From assembly GCA_017309275.1 (NCBI GenBank), contig JAFKLT010000065.1, positions 1 to 49,592 of the forward strand: a stretch of 49,592 bases of DNA, written 5' to 3'. Within the stretch, counting starts at the first letter, position 1. Every line of letters begins with the position of its first letter. The notes under the pieces were generated by a model. It was not told where the DNA came from, searched no databases, and worked only from the letters and a program-made list of their open reading frames with translations. The stretch is from Sphingomonadales bacterium. GTDB lineage: Bacteria; Pseudomonadota; Alphaproteobacteria; Sphingomonadales; Sphingomonadaceae. Positions 12,838 through 39,279 of the stretch are shown here, piece after piece. Position numbers and translations under genes: made by a program.

Positions 12838-12930
12838 GGAGACGTGGGTGAGTGGCTGAAACCAACGGTTTGCTAAACCGTCGTACTGGTAAATCCGGTA
12901 CCGAGGGTTCGAATCCCTCCGTCTCCGCCA
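12838..12930 (+). tRNA. tRNA-Ser (GCT)
   Basis: A 93-base tRNA with acceptor arms GGAGACG/CGTCTCC, discriminator G and an encoded CCA end. The anticodon stem ACGGT/ACCGT encloses TTGCTAA with anticodon GCT, reading AGC and AGT. The long variable arm (about 20 bases) confirms the serine identity. The T arm is GAGGGTTCGAATCCCTC. Confidence 0.97.
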
Positions 12931-22802: not shown

Positions 22803-22877
22803 TGGTGGGCGTGGCAAGGATTGAACTTGCGACCCCTGCGATGTCAACACAGTGCTCTACCACTGAGCTACACGCCC
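22803..22877 (-). tRNA. tRNA-Val (GAC)
   Basis: A 75-base tRNA on the minus strand with acceptor GGGCGTG/CACGCCC, discriminator A and encoded CCA. The D arm is GTAGCTCAGTGGTAGAGC and the anticodon loop TTGACAT carries GAC, reading GTC and GTT codons. It is followed directly by the bidirectional terminator. Confidence 0.96.
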
Positions 22878-24510: not shown

Positions 24511-24587
24511 TGGTCGGGGAGAGAGGATTCGAACCTCCGGCCCCTGCCTCCCGAAGACAGTGCTCTACCAGGCTGAGCTACTCCCCG
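24511..24587 (-). tRNA. tRNA-Pro (CGG)
   Basis: A 77-base tRNA on the minus strand with acceptor CGGGGAG/CTCTCCCCG-type pairing, discriminator A and encoded CCA. The anticodon arm CTGTC-TTCGGGA-GGCAG gives anticodon CGG, reading CCG. The T arm is GGAGGTTCGAATCCTC. It is followed on the same strand by the candidate small RNA and its terminator. Confidence 0.95.
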
Positions 24588-29965: not shown

Positions 29966-32900
29966 TCAAAGGCCGAGCCCCGCGAAGCTGGTCTGGTCGA
30001 ACTTCAGCTTGAACGTCACGTAAGCGCCCGAGCGCGAGAAGCGCGCATCCTCGAAGTCGCGATCGTGGAAGCCGGCGAAATTATAGCCGAAGGTGATGTT
30101 GGCGTTCTTCATCGGCGCCAGCGTCACCGTCGGGCCGCCTGCCCAGGCGATGGTGTCGCCGCCGGTCCCGATCCGTGCCGTACCCGATGCGCCCACATCG
30201 ACATGTTCGCCCAGGTTGAACCGCATGTCGGCGCCCAGCAGGTTCGACCAGCCCTTGACGTCGTCGGCGCCAAAGCGATCGAAATTGTATCGCGTTCCCC
30301 AGAACAGGCCAATTTCGGCGCGCTCGAACCAGCCATTGTTGTCGCCGTCATCGACGCTCCGTTTGCCGAGCGGGGTCCAGTTCAGCGACAGGCTGTTGAG
30401 CAGGCGGCGGCTGGTCGCGTCGCCATCGATCGTCAGCGTGCCGCCGATCGGCCCGGCTGCGCCCGCGACGGCATCGCGCACCTTGTCCGACCGGAACTCG
30501 CTCTTGTTAAGCCATGCGATCCGGGAGTCGGCGGGGCGGTGCGCCCAGCTCGCCTCGAACGTGACGACCTCGGTCGTCGGCGTCGTGCCCGCGCCGCTAG
30601 CCTTGGCATAGGTGAAAAGCGCGCCGAGCGCCTGGCCCTCGCCAAGCTGGCGGATCGTGCCCAGCGTCAGGCCGTACCGATTGGTCAGTTCTCCGTCGCG
30701 ATATTCGGCGCGACCGGTAATTGTCCACCGCTCCCTGCGATAGGTCGCGCCGACGCTGACCGCGGTAAAGTCCTCGGTCAACGTCCCGTTGCCGCCCAGA
30801 AAACCGCCCGAAACCACGGGATGCGCGACATTCGGCACATCGCTCGCCCGAACGCCGCCGATGGTTCGATTGCCGTCGATCGACAGGTCGACCGTTAGCT
30901 TGTTGTTGAGCAATAGCGACTGCGACAAGCCGTAGGCGGTGAAGGTGCGGGGGCCATATTCGCCAACTTCCTGTTGATTGGCGGTCGCGAGCAGGCGGGC
31001 GCCGGCCCAGGGAGCCAGGTCGAATCCCACGCGGGCAGTGCGCGCGCGGATCGTGTCGCCGTCGGCGATTTCGTAGCTTCCGACCAGATTGACGTCGCGC
31101 GTAATGGCATAGCGTGCGCCGATGCGATGGCGGGTCGGGAAGTCGACGCTGGCGTCCTTGCCGCCCAGCGCAAACTCGGTCTGTGCGTCGAGTTCGAGCT
31201 TTTTGTCGAACAGCCGCTGCGTCGCGCCCAATTGGACGATGTTCGATATGTTGCGCGAACCGTTCGACAGGCGGTCATCCGCGTGCGTCAGGCCGGCGCG
31301 CATGACCGTGGTGCCATTGTCATACTCGGCCAGCGCCCGCGCCGCACGGCGCCGCGCATCGACGTCGAGATAATCCTCCTGCCACGCGCTGCCCGTCAAC
31401 GACAGGTTTCGACCGGCCTTGAGGCGTGCGTCGAACCCGAACTTGCGCGTGCCATCCTCGCCGCGATTCAACTGACCGGTGCCAAAACCGGCCTCGCGTT
31501 CGCGAATATAGGCAAGAAAGTCAGCGGTGCTGCCGTGATGTTCGGCCTCGACCAGCCACGCCTTTGCAGTGCCAGCCGCCGCGCTGCCGCTGCCGCTTTT
31601 TGCGCGCGCATCGCTCACGGCATATTCGGCGCGCACTTCGGTATCGACATCGGGGCGATAGCGCGCGTCGACGCCGCCAAGATTGGTCCTGACGCTGTTG
31701 TTCTCGTCGTGGATGAAGGTTGCGCCGACGCGCAGCTTCTCGTCGTTCGACCGATAGCTGATGCGACCGCCCGCATTGAGTACGCGCTCGCCCACGCCGT
31801 CGACTTCATATTCGGCAACGATGAACTGCGGATTCAGGTCCGACGAGCGGCTGAGCACGGGCGACCGGAAACGGATCGTGCCGGCCAGATAATCGATGTC
31901 GTAATCGATATGACGGGTCAGCGAGACGCTTTCGACGATCCGATCGCTGTGGAGCCGATCGCGCGTCTCGATCACGATCCGCTCGCTGTTCGGCAAAATG
32001 TCTCGCGCGCCGAGTCGGTAAGGCCCGCTCAGGCCGTTGCCCTGAATCTCGTCGCGGCGGAAGCGATAGGGCGTGTCGGCGACAAACGCAGTCATCGCGA
32101 GGTTTCGGCCGCGATACTCGGCCTTGCCCCCGTTCAGCGCCCGCTGATAGCGCGCCAGCTGGGGCTCGGCGATGCCGGTCTCGATATCGCCGAACATGGC
32201 ATAGAATTGCGGGCGCTCCAGGCGCAGATAGAGCTTGCGGACCGATGCGGCGTCATACCGCGTCTCGTTGCGGTCGGCGTAGATGGTGTAATAGGCGCGC
32301 GGATCGATGACGCCGCCGAACCGGGCGTCGTCCTTGTCCTTGTCGCTGTCGTAGGACAGCGTCATCAGCCATTTTCCCCGCACGCGTCCCTTCGCATAGA
32401 GCGCAAGCCGCGCATCGGCGTTGAGATCGCTCGTCGTCTCGGCCACCGGCTCCATCCGGTCGTCGAGCGTGTTGTATCCCAGCGTCCCGGCGGCGAAGCC
32501 CACGACGGTCCACGGACGATCGCCCGGGTCGAGCCAGGTCTCGATCGTCTGCTTGCGTTCGACCTTGTCGTCCCGGAAATTGAAATCGATCGACAGCGTG
32601 CCCGAAGCGGTCGTGGGTTCGAGCTCGATATAGGCGATGCCGTCGTCACCATCGATACGCCAGACTGGTTGCGCACGCTCCAGGCCTGCGAGCTGGCGGG
32701 CCTGCTGCGCATCGGCTTCCACTGCGGGATAATAAGGGGCGGGAACGCTGAAATCGCCCGTCAGGCCGGCGCGGATCGGCTTGCCAGCGCGGTCGGTCAG
32801 TCGGACCGCGATCACCGGGCGCGTCACGCCGTTGGCGACCAGAACGGACTTTTCACGGATCAGCGTCGCCCGCATCGGTGTGATCGAATAATGGACGCTC

Positions 32901-35083
32901 CGCTCGATTGTCGCGACCACCCCGCCATTTTCATCCTTCACCTGCGCGACGAGCATGTTCTCACCCTCGCGAATCTCGATTCCGCGCCACAGGCTGACGG
33001 CGACCAATCCGTCGGCGGACTTGGTCACCCCTTCGAAGGTGAGGGCATCGACCGACTTGCCGTTGATGGTCAGCGTGACCTTCTGGCCCGGCGCATGTTT
33101 GACCGCCGCGCGGATAGCCTTTGTACGCGGATTATGGTCGGGTTCGGGGAAGAGCCAGTCGATGCCGGGTGCCTGGTTCGCAATCCAGTCGCGGTTCGCG
33201 CCCGCGGCGTCGGGATCGCTCATCGGCGTCGGCGCCTCGAACCGGATGGCGCCGGGCGCCATGCGCGGAGCCGCGTCCACGGCGCGGAAGTCGGCGCGCT
33301 TCAGTGCCCCGCCGCGCCCCTCCACGAAGCGTGAGATCGGGCTGTCCCCGCTCGCGGTCGAACGCGCACAGTCGATTGCCTCGCGATCGAGCGGCAGCGT
33401 CGAGGGGTCGATCTGGACGACGTGCAGGCCGGGGCGGACGCCCTCGAAATGATAGCGGCCGTCCTCGTCGGTGACGGTATAGCTGCCGTCCTGCAGCATG
33501 ACGCGAACACCCGCGATGCCTGACGCCTGTGCCGGGTCGACAGCGCAGCCGCCGTCGGTGATGCGGCCGATGATCGTCATGCGGTCGCCGACCTGATCGC
33601 GCTTGATCGATATCGTCGCTTCGGCGACGTTGCTCTTGCTGCCGCGATTGTCCGCCGCCGAGGCGCGATTGAGCGCGCTGCCGGGCTGCGCGGACACCGT
33701 GACTTCGGCAACATAGGTGAGAAGGGCGGTGCCCGACGGAGCGATCGGGGGCAGGGTGATGGTGAAGTCGCGTCCGTTCGCATTCACGGCGGCGTCGACC
33801 CGCGTTCCGTTCGCTCGCACCGTGTCGGCGCGCAGGCGCATGCCGGGAGGCAGCGTGTCGCTGACCGTCACCGCGCCGGTGGTACGGCGGGCATCGCGGT
33901 TCGCCACTTCGATGCGGTATTGCACGACGTCGCCGGCGACCGCGGTCTGTGTCGACGTCGTCTTGCGCAGGATCAGCGGCAGGCCCGGCTGGTCGACCGG
34001 GATATCGACCCGCACCGGGGCAGGGCTGTCGAGCGTGAACGACCGGCTATAGCTCGCATCGGTGATGGTGAAGGGCAGGCCGTCGTCCGGACGGCGCAGG
34101 CCCGCCAGGTCCGCCGCGCTCGATGTCGAGGGCGCGGTATAGGGCGCGGGCGGCTCGACCACCAAACGATAGGATCCGGGCGCCACGAAGGGGAAGCGAT
34201 AGTCGCCGGGCGGGAAGCTATAGACCCGCCCGCTCGCGTCGGTGACATTTTGTCCGGTGACGACGGTCGAGGGATAGGCGCTGACGCCGTCGTCGCCGAA
34301 CACCTGCGCGGGCTGGCCCGTCGCGGTGTTGATCAGTGTCACGCGGCTTCCCGGAACGGCCGAACCATCGCCGCTGTCGAAAACGATGCCGAAGGGGTCG
34401 ACGAGGAAGTCGATTGTCGCGATCGCGACCAGGCTGGCGTTGGCCTGATCGGTGACGCGGAGTTGGATCGGCGTCCCCGGATTGACCGACAGGCGGCAAT
34501 CGCCCGGGACGACGGCGGGCGGAACGCCGATCGTGTTGATGAAGCCGACGAACTCGCCGCTGTTCGCGGCAGTCTCGGTCAAGGTGATGCGTTCGCTGTC
34601 GCCATTCGCCAGATCGAGCACGACCGGCAGCGTGTCGATCGCAGTCGGATCGATATTGGCCGAAGCGAGGGTGACGCCGACGACCAGCACTTCTCCGGCG
34701 CGGAATGCATCGCTGCTCTGGAGGGAAGCCGGGCTGGTCGGCATGCCGGCATAGGCGCCGCCAAGCTGAATGAGGTTGCCGCTGCTCGCGGCCGTGATGC
34801 TCTGCGCCGCGATGATCGTTCCGCCGCAGCGCGTCGGGACAAGCGGCGCGGTCTTGTTGCCGCCCTGATCGACGAGGCGATAGGTCTTGATGACGGGCTG
34901 CTCGTTCGGACGCGCGCGGACGGTCACGTCGACGCGATTCGAAAAGGTCGCGGCAGGACTGCCGCCGTCCGTCCATTCGGCGGAGGCCGTGTTCGAAATG
35001 ACCTGTGCCCCAGCAGCCGCAGGCAGCATGGCTGCCGCGACCAGGGCGGTCACGAAGGACATATATTTCTGACGGAGCTTCAT
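29966..35083 (-). CDS. 1705-residue secreted DUF11 / outer-membrane barrel protein
   Basis: This very large protein has a signal peptide (about 1-26) and a start motif ISNTASAEWTDGG shared with two smaller proteins of the operon. Ig-like beta segments with a carboxypeptidase-regulatory-like stretch follow to about 365, then a DUF11 repeat at about 370-495 (LILRKTTSTQTAVAGDVVQY to SNVAEATI). A SdrD-B-like domain lies near 505-565 (SYTVTDEDGRYHFEGVRPG). From about 850 the chain becomes amphipathic beta-strand with many Tyr, Arg and Asp (RKLYLRLERPQFYAMFGD near 955), continuing to the end (FKLKFDQTSFAGLGL), like an outer-membrane barrel. I infer a barrel-anchored surface protein. It is the last of four genes; a strong hairpin lies just before it. 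No enzymatic motif is seen. Confidence 0.82.
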   Translation of the reverse strand: MKLRQKYMSFVTALVAAAMLPAAAGAQVISNTASAEWTDGGSPAATFSNRVDVTVRARPNEQPVIKTYRLVDQGGNKTAPLVPTRCGGTIIAAQSITAASSGNLIQLGGAYAGMPTSPASLQSSDAFRAGEVLVVGVTLASANIDPTAIDTLPVVLDLANGDSERITLTETAANSGEFVGFINTIGVPPAVVPGDCRLSVNPGTPIQLRVTDQANASLVAIATIDFLVDPFGIVFDSGDGSAVPGSRVTLINTATGQPAQVFGDDGVSAYPSTVVTGQNVTDASGRVYSFPPGDYRFPFVAPGSYRLVVEPPAPYTAPSTSSAADLAGLRRPDDGLPFTITDASYSRSFTLDSPAPVRVDIPVDQPGLPLILRKTTSTQTAVAGDVVQYRIEVANRDARRTTGAVTVSDTLPPGMRLRADTVRANGTRVDAAVNANGRDFTITLPPIAPSGTALLTYVAEVTVSAQPGSALNRASAADNRGSKSNVAEATISIKRDQVGDRMTIIGRITDGGCAVDPAQASGIAGVRVMLQDGSYTVTDEDGRYHFEGVRPGLHVVQIDPSTLPLDREAIDCARSTASGDSPISRFVEGRGGALKRADFRAVDAAPRMAPGAIRFEAPTPMSDPDAAGANRDWIANQAPGIDWLFPEPDHNPRTKAIRAAVKHAPGQKVTLTINGKSVDALTFEGVTKSADGLVAVSLWRGIEIREGENMLVAQVKDENGGVVATIERSVHYSITPMRATLIREKSVLVANGVTRPVIAVRLTDRAGKPIRAGLTGDFSVPAPYYPAVEADAQQARQLAGLERAQPVWRIDGDDGIAYIELEPTTASGTLSIDFNFRDDKVERKQTIETWLDPGDRPWTVVGFAAGTLGYNTLDDRMEPVAETTSDLNADARLALYAKGRVRGKWLMTLSYDSDKDKDDARFGGVIDPRAYYTIYADRNETRYDAASVRKLYLRLERPQFYAMFGDIETGIAEPQLARYQRALNGGKAEYRGRNLAMTAFVADTPYRFRRDEIQGNGLSGPYRLGARDILPNSERIVIETRDRLHSDRIVESVSLTRHIDYDIDYLAGTIRFRSPVLSRSSDLNPQFIVAEYEVDGVGERVLNAGGRISYRSNDEKLRVGATFIHDENNSVRTNLGGVDARYRPDVDTEVRAEYAVSDARAKSGSGSAAAGTAKAWLVEAEHHGSTADFLAYIREREAGFGTGQLNRGEDGTRKFGFDARLKAGRNLSLTGSAWQEDYLDVDARRRAARALAEYDNGTTVMRAGLTHADDRLSNGSRNISNIVQLGATQRLFDKKLELDAQTEFALGGKDASVDFPTRHRIGARYAITRDVNLVGSYEIADGDTIRARTARVGFDLAPWAGARLLATANQQEVGEYGPRTFTAYGLSQSLLLNNKLTVDLSIDGNRTIGGVRASDVPNVAHPVVSGGFLGGNGTLTEDFTAVSVGATYRRERWTITGRAEYRDGELTNRYGLTLGTIRQLGEGQALGALFTYAKASGAGTTPTTEVVTFEASWAHRPADSRIAWLNKSEFRSDKVRDAVAGAAGPIGGTLTIDGDATSRRLLNSLSLNWTPLGKRSVDDGDNNGWFERAEIGLFWGTRYNFDRFGADDVKGWSNLLGADMRFNLGEHVDVGASGTARIGTGGDTIAWAGGPTVTLAPMKNANITFGYNFAGFHDRDFEDARFSRSGAYVTFKLKFDQTSFAGLGL

Positions 35084-35098
35084 CGCTGGTCCCGAAGA

Positions 35099-35139
35099 GG
35101 GCAGCGGGGGAGCGCTTTCGAACGCCGACCCCGCTGCCC
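35099..35139 (-). promoter_or_regulatory. Intercistronic hairpin inside the surface-protein operon
   Basis: GGGCAGCGGGG (35099-35109) pairs perfectly with CCCCGCTGCCC (35129-35139) over 11 bases. It has no T-run on the minus strand. It lies between the 352-residue gene and the 1705-residue gene, about 15 bases upstream of the latter's start. It may slow exonucleases and so raise the level of the small subunit relative to the giant, or reduce read-through. Confidence 0.6.
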
Positions 35140-35154
35140 CGTCAATCCGTCAGG

Positions 35155-36213
35155 TCAGTTGACCGTCGCGCGGAAAACGAGCGTGCGCGTGTCGCCCGCC
35201 GCAACCGTCGCGATCGTGCCGGATACGTTCGGCGCCACATAGCTTCCGCCCGTTGCGCCATCGGCGTTACAGGTGCCGCTCGTCACCGTGCCGTTCAGCA
35301 GGATCGAACTGCCAACGAAGGTCAGCTGGCCCGGAACCGGGTCGTTGATCAGCACGGTTGTCGCCGCCGCGCTGCCGCTGTTGGCGACCGCGATGCAATA
35401 TTCGACGACGGCGCCCGGGATCAGTTTCGGATTCGTCGTATTGTTGAACGGATCCGAAATGACGCGGCTGGTCTTGGTCACCGCCAGCGTCGCAGTCTGG
35501 ACGGTATAGTCGTCGGCGGCGCTGTGCGACGCGTCGCGGCTGCCGTCGTTGACGCCGGCCGTATCGGCGAACACCGTGTCCTTCGCCGCCGTATTCGCGC
35601 CGGTCGTTTCGGTGATCGCCGCACCCTGGCTGCCCGCCGTACCGCCCTCGCGAGCGGTCGCGCGCAGCTGTACGCCCGCGACCGCGTTATTGGCGAGGCC
35701 GGTCGGGATATCGGCAACGACGAACAGACGGATCGGCGTATCGACCGCGAGTTCATCGATGAAGGTGACGAGCGTATCGCCCGCGTCCCAGCTTCCGACC
35801 GTACCCGATGACGTATTGTCCCGATAAATCCGTACGTTGTTGACGTTGAAACTATCGGTGCCGCCATGCGCGGCGGTGCCGCCGGTGATCTGTGTCGCGG
35901 CGAGCGCGAAATCGAGCACTTCGTTCGAACTGTTGGTCAGCTGAAACGTGGTAACGGCGTTGGTCTGGCCAGGAACCACATTGGTCGTGACGGTCCCCAC
36001 CTCTTCGACGAGCAGGTTGATCTTGCGGTCGACCGTGAAGCTGTTCGACGCGCTCTGCTGTCCCTGAGAAACGCCACCGACCTGATAATCGACGGTGGCG
36101 GTATTCGTGATCGAGGCGCCCGCGGTGGTGCCGGCCGCATAGGCCGGGTTGGCTGCGACGACGGACGCCGCTGCCACACCGATGGTGCCCCAGTAAGTCA
36201 GCTTGCTGGTCAT
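35155..36213 (-). CDS. Secreted DUF11-type protein, 352 residues
   Basis: The product has a signal peptide cleaved near AYA-AG (residue 26), followed by the motif ASITNTATVDYQVGG, which recurs in the first and last proteins of this operon. A middle domain is Thr/Ala/Asp-rich. The C-terminal domain (from about 260, KLIPGAVVEYCIAVANSGSAA) is a DUF11-like Ig fold with two cysteines (YCIAV, SGTCNAD), and the chain ends FRATVN. No membrane anchor or cell-wall signal is present, so it is exported to the periplasm and possibly beyond. It is 74 bases downstream of the 155-residue gene. Confidence 0.82.
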   Translation of the reverse strand: MTSKLTYWGTIGVAAASVVAANPAYAAGTTAGASITNTATVDYQVGGVSQGQQSASNSFTVDRKINLLVEEVGTVTTNVVPGQTNAVTTFQLTNSSNEVLDFALAATQITGGTAAHGGTDSFNVNNVRIYRDNTSSGTVGSWDAGDTLVTFIDELAVDTPIRLFVVADIPTGLANNAVAGVQLRATAREGGTAGSQGAAITETTGANTAAKDTVFADTAGVNDGSRDASHSAADDYTVQTATLAVTKTSRVISDPFNNTTNPKLIPGAVVEYCIAVANSGSAAATTVLINDPVPGQLTFVGSSILLNGTVTSGTCNADGATGGSYVAPNVSGTIATVAAGDTRTLVFRATVN

Positions 36214-36287
36214 AGCTGAGCTCCTAGGCTTGGTTGGTCGCCCTATTCCCCACCGCTGGCGACCGTTAAGCGGCTTTAATCACGTAT

Positions 36288-36755
36288 TTATTTGACTACT
36301 CCCCGAAACATCAGCTTCCCGGTGCCCCCAGCGGGAATGGGTTTCTGAAATGCCCAGCGGATGTGCGTTACATCGGAGGGCTGCGCCGGACGGCGCGTGC
36401 CGTCGGGCTGCATGATCGTCAGTGTATCGAGCGTGCCCCAGGCCTTGCCGCCGTCGACCGAAACGAGCTGTGCGGTATCGCCGGCACCGGCGAAGCGCAC
36501 CGCCGACGGCATCGGGTTGGTGATCACGAACTTGTCTGCGGGCTGCTGCCCCGCGTTGCGATAGTTGAGCACGAACACGAGCCTGTCGCCCGGAACGACG
36601 ATCTTCGGTTCTTCCAGCAACACGCGTTCCTTGCCGCTGGCGTCCGTCGTTACGCGCTCGACGAACACGCTGTTGTCGAGTGCAACCTGGTTCGAAGCGA
36701 TGGCTTGCGTGGGTGCAAGGGTCGCGAGTGCGATGAAAAAGGCTTTGATCTTCAT
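36288..36755 (-). CDS. Secreted DUF11-like protein, 155 residues
   Basis: The product has a signal peptide (MKIKAFFIALATLAPTQAIA) and a single Ig-like domain of the DUF11 type: VPGDRLVFVLNYRNAGQQPA, FVITNPMPSAVRFAG and a C-terminal strand KLMFRGVVK. A conserved-looking WAFQKPIPAGGTGK precedes the end. Its ATG overlaps the TGA of the upstream gene (TGATG), so the two are translationally coupled. It lacks the NTA motif seen at the N-termini of its neighbours. Function unknown; its small single-domain form would suit an accessory or capping subunit, which is speculation. Confidence 0.82.
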   Translation of the reverse strand: MKIKAFFIALATLAPTQAIASNQVALDNSVFVERVTTDASGKERVLLEEPKIVVPGDRLVFVLNYRNAGQQPADKFVITNPMPSAVRFAGAGDTAQLVSVDGGKAWGTLDTLTIMQPDGTRRPAQPSDVTHIRWAFQKPIPAGGTGKLMFRGVVK

Positions 36756-37762
36756 CAGTTGATCCTCGTTCGAAAGGTTACGGTCCGCGTCTGGCCGCCG
36801 GCTACGGTGCCGAGGAGGACGCGAATGCGAGTGCCGTTGAAATCGCCGGCGTCGGCGTCGGCGGCGTCGGTCAAAGGACCGCCGCCAAGCGTAATCGACC
36901 CGGCCACATAGGCGGTGTCGGCGGGAACATTGTCGGTGATGGCCAGGGCATTGATGGAACCCGAGCCGGCGACGGTTGCCGTAATCGTATAGGTGATGAT
37001 CGCGCCCGGGACCGGGTCGCTGCCGCCAAAGGGGTCGGTGATGCTTGCCGATTTGACGAGCGAGACGGTGGCGGCCGCGACGCGGAACGCGCCATTGTCT
37101 TGCCCGTCGGCGCCGGTCGAGCCCACGATGGCGTCGCCGCCACCTTCACCCTGGCCGGCAAAGGTGGTGCCGGGCGTGCCCGTGCCGGTTTTCGCGGCTG
37201 CGACGAGCGTCACGATGCCGCGATTTCCGTCGGTGACGGTGCCCGGCGTCGTCGCCAGGACGAAAACGCGAATGCCCTGGTCGGGATTCAGCACGGGATC
37301 GTTGGCGCCGGGTGTGTAGAGCGTGTCGGTGCTGGCGTCGAATACGCCGTCGCCATTATCGATATAGATCTGCGTGACGACGGGGTCGTAATTGTCGCCG
37401 CCGACATTGGCGATCGTGCTGAGGCTGAAAGCTTCCTGTCCGTTACCGGTATTGGTCACCGAATAGGTCAGCACCTGATTGGTGGCGCCCGGCGTCGTCG
37501 GGACGTCGGACGGATTGGCAGTGGCCACGGTAACATCGAGCAGTTCGTCGACGCGCAGATCGACGCGGTTCGAATCGATCGTCTGCGTGCCCGATCCATT
37601 GTCGTAGCTCGCGCTGGCGGTGTTGCTGATCGTGGTGCCCGCGCGCGTGCCGGCGGCATGAGCCTGTGACGGCAGCATGAGCGCCATGGTTAACGCAAGG
37701 GCGGTTGAAGAGGGATGTAGAAGCCGATGATGCTTCGCGCCCCCCACAGGCGCTTTCATCAT
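36755..37762 (-). CDS. Secreted DUF11-type protein, 335 residues, first gene of the operon
   Basis: The start at 37762 gives a long signal peptide (cleavage near AHA-AG, residue 36); the frame is open further to 37990 without support. The mature protein starts GTRAGTTISNTASASYDNGS, parallel to the 352-residue protein. A central domain with DNGDGVFDASTDTLY resembles a calcium-binding acidic loop. The C-terminal DUF11-like domain (DPVPGAIITYTITATVAGSG) ends FRTRIN, close to FRATVN of its paralogue. It is coupled to the next gene by a one-base overlap. The 167-base gap before it, shared with the divergent AI-2E permease, should contain the operon promoter. Confidence 0.82.
   Translation of the reverse strand: MMKAPVGGAKHHRLLHPSSTALALTMALMLPSQAHAAGTRAGTTISNTASASYDNGSGTQTIDSNRVDLRVDELLDVTVATANPSDVPTTPGATNQVLTYSVTNTGNGQEAFSLSTIANVGGDNYDPVVTQIYIDNGDGVFDASTDTLYTPGANDPVLNPDQGIRVFVLATTPGTVTDGNRGIVTLVAAAKTGTGTPGTTFAGQGEGGGDAIVGSTGADGQDNGAFRVAAATVSLVKSASITDPFGGSDPVPGAIITYTITATVAGSGSINALAITDNVPADTAYVAGSITLGGGPLTDAADADAGDFNGTRIRVLLGTVAGGQTRTVTFRTRIN

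Positions 37763-39202: not shown

Positions 39203-39279
<77 letters not shown>

Follow-up and report, generated by a model that had tools for sequence, protein, structure and literature searches.

What do four secreted proteins do together, if the three small ones break off within a DUF11-type domain and the large one ends in a predicted barrel? This question is raised by an operon on the minus strand of contig JAFKLT010000065.1 of a Sphingopyxis-like Sphingomonadales bacterium, of which a stretch of 49,592 nucleotides (the window) was analysed. The open reading frames and their translations bear out the four genes and lengths given by a first-pass annotation made from the letters alone: gene A (36755..37762, 335 amino acids), gene B (36288..36755, 155 amino acids), gene C (35155..36213, 352 amino acids) and gene D (29966..35083, 1705 amino acids), the last encoding a predicted outer-membrane protein. 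A and B are coupled by a TGATG overlap, as had been noticed before, the gaps between B and C and between C and D are ~70 bases each, and a pattern scan of the minus strand between the four genes revealed no terminator-like site. Signal peptides, likewise claimed for each protein, are recognised by eye in all four and look like typical Sec peptides (QAHA-AGT in A, QAIA-SNQ in B, PAYA-AGT in C, AAGA-QVI in D). The first-pass annotation had regarded A, B and C as subunits of a secreted surface structure. We lean towards a more specific reading, in which A, C and D, together with a class of adhesin-like proteins called E here, would form a surface-display chain via donor-hairpin complementation of split DUF11 domains, possibly in a covalent manner.

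In 2025, DUF11 was recognised as an isopeptide domain similar to CnaA and was given the name CLIPPER. The structure 9IFR is a four- plus five-stranded sandwich with a bond between Lys715 and Asn806, and Asp748 is the likely catalyst (PMC12617251). The Pfam family DUF11 (PF01345, cut-off 24.6 bits) is matched by A (25.6 bits), C (35.3 bits) and D (39.4 bits), but B stays below the cut-off with 18.4 bits, and in A and C DUF11 makes up only the C-terminal third of the protein, so that the earlier description of all four proteins as DUF11 proteins holds in part. The middle domain of A and C is a different immunoglobulin (Ig)-like domain, as a structure comparison of A indicates. The integrin-leg matches of A (Foldseek, VIA) reflect tandem Ig domains at a root-mean-square deviation of ~10 and served for the domain borders only, and a PDB profile search with the A and C families gave nothing useful.

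The DUF11 matches of A and C stop together with the chain at profile position 84 of 114, short of the two final strands and of the Asn, and in an alignment the shared end of A, B and C falls on column 97 of the DUF11 domain of D. Lys and Asp are kept in the truncated, putative acceptor domains of A (36758..37069, residues 232-335, Lys237 and Asp277) and C (35158..35493, residues 241-352, Lys247 and Asp291), and a full Lys-Asp-Asn triad is thus not found within one domain of either protein. A motif at the mature N-termini of A, C and D resembles, to judge from the sequence, the missing DUF11 strands, Asn included. This candidate donor hairpin comprises residues 37-72 of A, from the predicted mature N-terminus (37547..37654, Asn47), residues 27-64 of C (36022..36135, Asn37) and residues 27-58 of D, at the predicted mature N-terminus (34910..35005, Asn31). 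D additionally has one complete internal DUF11/CLIPPER domain (33629..33973, residues 371-485; Lys374, Asp409, Asn472). When it is aligned with 9IFR, Lys374 and Asn472 fall on the bonded Lys-Asn pair, and Asp409 aligns with the Asp in the NDTL motif; we count this Asp one residue away from the number given in the paper.

A genome scan with D confirmed 118 places, of which the best 80 were kept and gave 75 loci. In seven of them the order of genes could not be judged because the contig starts inside D (six loci) or inside C (one locus). Of the remaining 68 loci, 67 have the genes in the order A-B-C-D (63 by script and four, in which the best D segment is partial, by eye), and the lone exception is the Lysobacteraceae locus L092, which has B-C-D and lacks A. 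Therefore, the arrangement is not due to chance, and the conserved synteny that the first-pass annotation had suggested looking for is present. The loci span from Sphingopyxis to Methylotenera, Gallionella, Sulfuriferula, a zetaproteobacterium, a gammaproteobacterium and a desulfuromonadale; most of the remote loci come from metagenome-assembled genomes. Among 196 relatives D and C occur in 83 genomes each, and these are the same 83 for both; in an even sample of the phylum the C profile matched 28 of 398 genomes, some of them via the DUF11 end only. The lowest identity to the window protein is 33% for A and 36% for C. D consists of two adjacent open frames in G033:C11 (13632-18661), and A of two overlapping frames in the Methylotenera locus L104 (2084-3140), each of which is a broken gene or an assembly error.

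Lys and Asp of the A and C acceptors are invariant despite this identity. In the loci of the D scan, with gapped rows left out (one for A, two and one for D), Lys237 and Asp277 of A are found in 67/67 and the donor Asn47 in 65/67 proteins; Lys247, Asp291 and the donor Asn37 of C are present in 69/69 each, and the donor Asn31 of D in 65/65. The internal triad of D is kept in 64/66 (Lys374), 65/67 (Asp409) and 66/67 (Asn472). An apparent loss of the Lys in C of L161 was traced to an alignment error when the sequence itself was read.

The four-gene set is incomplete, since it is accompanied by class E, whose proteins share this type of truncated end. In distant loci the neighbours of the set include secreted proteins that end in this truncated DUF11 and whose N-termini are ice-binding-like, beta-helix or of other kinds; two of them, with an Ice_binding-like domain (PF11999) before the truncated end, are encoded directly 3' of D (L095 14734-15945, E-value 2.1e-60; L096 14722-15876, E-value 2.3e-57). 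Using a profile of the truncated end, the E protein of the window's genome was found on another contig (G000:C75, ~34984-36849, 621 amino acids). It contains a CshA_NR2 adhesin domain (E-value 2e-16), SpaA_3 stalks (E-value 7.5e-56) and the truncated DUF11 followed by the stop codon, and no anchor is seen between the domains or after the truncated DUF11. Among the matches listed for the E-end profile, which run down to ~53 bits, all 83 matching relatives have D, and 0 of the 113 relatives without D match. As some of these matches are C itself, only full-length E matches were counted, by eye per genome; a match was taken as full-length if it extends to position 132 or beyond (of 151) and scores 66 bits or more. 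Such proteins are present in 47 of the 83 relatives with D versus 0 of the 113 without (Fisher 8e-23), and within the genus in 35 of 69 versus 0 of 11 genomes (p 0.0018), both values being uncorrected for relatedness. In ten of 23 loci E immediately follows the 3' end of D in the same orientation (L120, L146-L148, L151-L153, L155, L162, L163); in two of these, L120 and L163, its frame is short (217-239 residues). In L161 and L164 E lies upstream of A, and several of the 23 loci are too short to tell. Lys and Asp are kept in 29 of 33 E proteins, with the chain again ending ahead of the Asn, and no match of the donor profiles to these 33 has an E-value below 0.0085. Moreover, a second acceptor-only class of ~660 amino acids with a C-like truncated end exists in four loci (L141 1803-3791, L142 1117-3342, L143 5001-6983, L144 4821-7469), in three of them beside E; the L141 protein, which was scanned, has a P_proprotein domain and a complete DUF11 and ends in a C-like truncated DUF11. 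In L145 (2657-8290) three E-type genes stand in tandem and converge with D, all three without Lys and Asp.

Taken as a chain, the subunits would follow the order E-A-C-D. E would be the tip, with functional domains at the N-terminus, and would accept the hairpin of A or C with its truncated C-terminal DUF11, and A and C would be links, each with the donor hairpin in front and the truncated acceptor behind. D would be the base because it carries a donor only and ends in a large predicted barrel; this usher-like outer-membrane barrel might perhaps also serve as export pore. As the acceptors keep Lys and Asp and the Asn sits in the donor hairpin, a self-closing bond is possible at each junction, which would then be an intermolecular Lys-Asn bond formed without sortase. 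Such an assembly is directly testable, since each junction predicts a named Lys-Asn pair.

Four of the 33 E proteins, which come from two genomes (L087 and G114), lack both Lys and Asp, and there the A donor has Ser instead of Asn and the donors of C and D keep Asn. Counting the Sphingopyxis cases once gives a 2x2 table of 2, 1, 1 and 17 (Fisher p 0.04), and this covariation hints that A may donate to E. L102 also has Ser in the A donor, with no E in reach. The same exceptions fit an alternative that we hold to be unlikely but worth keeping in mind, namely that complementation is real and not covalent, with Lys, Asp and Asn being general packing residues of the DUF11 fold: the A donor Asn is replaced by Ser in L087, L102, G114 and G237 without loss of the system, and E does without Lys and Asp in L087, G114 and L120. 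However, no exception to Lys and Asp in A and C or to the donor Asn in C and D is seen in the D-scan loci, despite the low identity of A and C given above.

The donor motif was also assessed by scoring. Joining the donors to the C domain adds 3.5-5.6 bits to its DUF11 score, whereas shuffled donors add 0.4-1.7 bits. A first hairpin profile built from seven domains was too poor, as it had its best match at the motif in 14/68 A, 60/69 C and 26/63 D proteins. It was replaced by a profile of 59 domains, from which three proteins of the system had been removed before building. By a loose pattern test, which may count matches elsewhere in the protein, this profile hit 57/68 A, 61/69 C, 46/67 D, 4/69 B and 1/33 E proteins. 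For a recount the pattern test was replaced by overlap with the aligned segment, leaving out one A and two D proteins without such a segment, and the recount was repeated minus three loci from genomes holding the system.

Several observations speak against a chain of this kind. The gain in the join test is matched by one of ten ordinary segments (45.0 bits), and this control weakens the test; the scores of the hairpin profile are low (median ~5 bits), and shuffled sequences reach the same E-value in 6/68 A and 8/69 C proteins. No PapD-like chaperone is found among the four genes using Pfam. Full-length E was not obtained from 36 of the 83 genomes with D, and 15 of the 33 E sequences are 5'-truncated, which leaves 18 complete proteins as the basis for the absence of a donor motif from E. 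Two loci run counter to the covariation: in L161 E is intact and the A donor has Ser, and in L120 E lacks both Lys and Asp and the A donor has Asn. Finally, B does not fit the donor/acceptor chain.

B contains one truncated DUF11-like domain, has no donor motif, and at the places of Lys and Asp has Glu (65/69) and Asn (68/69). It is present in 97 of the 196 relatives, many of which have distant unlinked copies. In four genomes of the same genus without C and D (G035, G068, G069, G070; L110-L113) B stands alone between the genes that flank the set in the window; these flanks were recognised by eye, and G069 was placed from the B-scan coordinates in L112. Since B is kept without C and D, it either has its own use or is being lost, and to regard it as an obligate subunit is too strong. 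Therefore, to take all three small proteins as subunits, as at first pass, is an oversimplification: A and C, with their shared N-terminal motif and truncated acceptor, agree with it, and B, which has neither donor motif nor Lys and Asp and is kept alone, does not. As a guess, B could be a non-covalent cap or holder of the donor hairpins.

The anchor of the chain would be D. For its C-terminal ~850 residues, described as barrel-like at first pass, AlphaFold2 and the fold search agree on a beta-barrel (29969..32512, residues ~858-1705; modelled with 40 strands that start at model residue 354), with a mean predicted local distance difference test score of 76.4 and a predicted template modelling score of 0.70, which supports the prediction of an outer-membrane barrel protein. 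A domain inserted in the barrel (31829..32041, residues ~1015-1085) takes a plug-like position. Ig-like domains lie between the donor motif and the barrel of D. In front of the barrel, a CarboxypepD_reg/SdrD_B-like domain (33407..33547, residues ~513-559) is indicated by the Pfam matches CarboxypepD_reg (41.6 bits) and SdrD_B (31.3 bits, cut-off 29.7), and the SdrD-like part named before is thus present as well. The best structural matches of D in VIA are FimD entries, which are pilus ushers; the usher family PF00577 is absent from the Pfam and NCBIfam matches of D at E-values up to 1, and the likeness is by fold only. In two betaproteobacterial loci (L089 15013-16020, L099 10915-11910) the gene next to D on its 3' side encodes an OmpA-family protein, which is possibly an extra anchor to peptidoglycan. 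Two paralogous systems (L118 22-10439, L119 3227-15191) have a long secreted DUF11-repeat protein beside a D-related barrel protein of 1238-1477 amino acids; in one repeat protein of L119, with AQTAVNTA at the start of the mature part and VTITYSCQVN at the end, the two ends have a similar donor/acceptor look.

The size of the predicted barrel also recalls the SprA/Sov translocon of type 9 secretion, and D might then export A, B, C and E by reading their truncated DUF11 ends as sorting signals, with the N-terminal motif having another use. SprA is indeed among the Foldseek matches of D (E-value 2.6e-7), a weakly similar motif of D (TIGR04189, residues 1051-1131, E-value 0.043) starts inside the inserted domain, and the C-terminal domain is common to all partners. 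However, the TIGR04189 match reaches 10.9 bits, far under the family cut-off of 200, in a search that did not extend to other type 9 parts, and neither the split of the triad nor the occurrence of the N-terminal motif on D and the links, but not on B or the 18 complete E proteins, is explained. Taken by itself we regard this translocon as distinctly unlikely, and it could hold together with the proposed chain. Even less probable is that A and C complement themselves and are separate secreted monomers, with the N-terminal hairpin folding into the own C-terminal DUF11, for which donor and acceptor in one chain and the high confidence of the A hairpin in the AlphaFold2 monomer speak, since the donor of D, which has a complete DUF11 of its own, and the acceptor of E, which has no donor, would stay unpaired.

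Among known systems, chaperone-usher pili (FimD/PapC) consist of incomplete Ig-like subunits with the donor at the mature N-terminus and have an acceptor-only tip adhesin. In the set described here, strand-lacking subunits with N-terminal donors are suggested by the sequences, and the predicted barrel of D has an inserted domain like that of the ushers. In contrast, the donor looks like a hairpin here, D itself carries a donor, the predicted barrel is larger and no usher family matches. As chaperone and usher family are missing from the set, we do not file it as a chaperone-usher system; an ordinary chaperone-usher pair is present on contig C42 (G000:C42 71998-74738), which includes the sole PapD_N (74409-74738) and the sole PF00577 of the genome. 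Engineered SpyTag/SpyCatcher is a split isopeptide domain of CnaB type, the halves of which join spontaneously; the domain proposed here would be split likewise, but would be natural and of CnaA type. By eye, A, C and E end at the DUF11 strand with neither a hydrophobic tail nor a sortase-type LPXTG signal, an inspection that did not include sortase genes.

The CLIPPER paper deals with the same domain family, to whose bonded pair in 9IFR the internal Lys and Asn of D align, and describes an adhesin with a CshA_NR2-like domain and a CLIPPER stalk. However, its bond lies within one domain instead of a domain split between polypeptides as proposed here, its adhesin has an own OmpA-like anchor, which E does not show, and no split or intermolecular CLIPPER appears in the parts of the paper covered (PMC12617251). 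In the archaeal thread of Sulfolobus (Saci_0406), donor-strand complementation is accompanied by an isopeptide bond that is proposed to form between subunits, and a putative terminal subunit is encoded alongside; there, the N-terminal amine of Asp24 joins Asn57 two subunits away, and there is no outer membrane (PMC9715654). The parts of that text covered name no DUF11 (PMC9715654), and a DUF11 control search gave a match in that species. According to the sections seen, F-ENA endospore appendages dock an N-terminal hook into the preceding subunit and use a DUF11 anchor in Clostridia, but they are DUF4183 trimers on spores with DUF11 in the anchor only (PMC11952670). A paper on type 11 secretion cargo was set aside, as in the parts seen it concerns DUF1194 and mentions DUF11 only once as domain partner (PMC12282271). 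Among the papers listed in searches of open-licence PubMed Central, none describes such a set in its title or in the abstract shown. The first-pass statement that no function is described for such a set agrees with this, though the DUF11 domain itself was characterised in 2025. DUF11, donor-strand assembly and ushers are known already; the combination is a variant of donor-strand-assembled adhesive structures that we did not find described. Elsewhere, the window contains four tRNA genes (12838-12927, 22806-22877, 24514-24587, 39203-39276), and no other Rfam family reached threshold.

Tentatively, we go one step further and suggest a natural Gram-negative split-isopeptide assembly, in which anchorless adhesins, links and a giant usher-like barrel would first be joined by N-terminal hairpins completing the truncated CLIPPER domain of the partner and then be welded by Lys-Asn bonds with neither dedicated chaperone nor sortase, and interchangeable tips (CshA-like, ice-binding-like, P-domain, beta-helix) would be carried by one conserved base. 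If true, this would be a way of fixing anchorless adhesins in many environmental Proteobacteria, and DUF11 proteins with such a layout would gain a defined function. Moreover, a covalent and apparently chaperone-free member would be added to the donor-strand assemblies, an outer-membrane barrel of unusual size would be predicted, and split-isopeptide protein ligation would have a natural counterpart.

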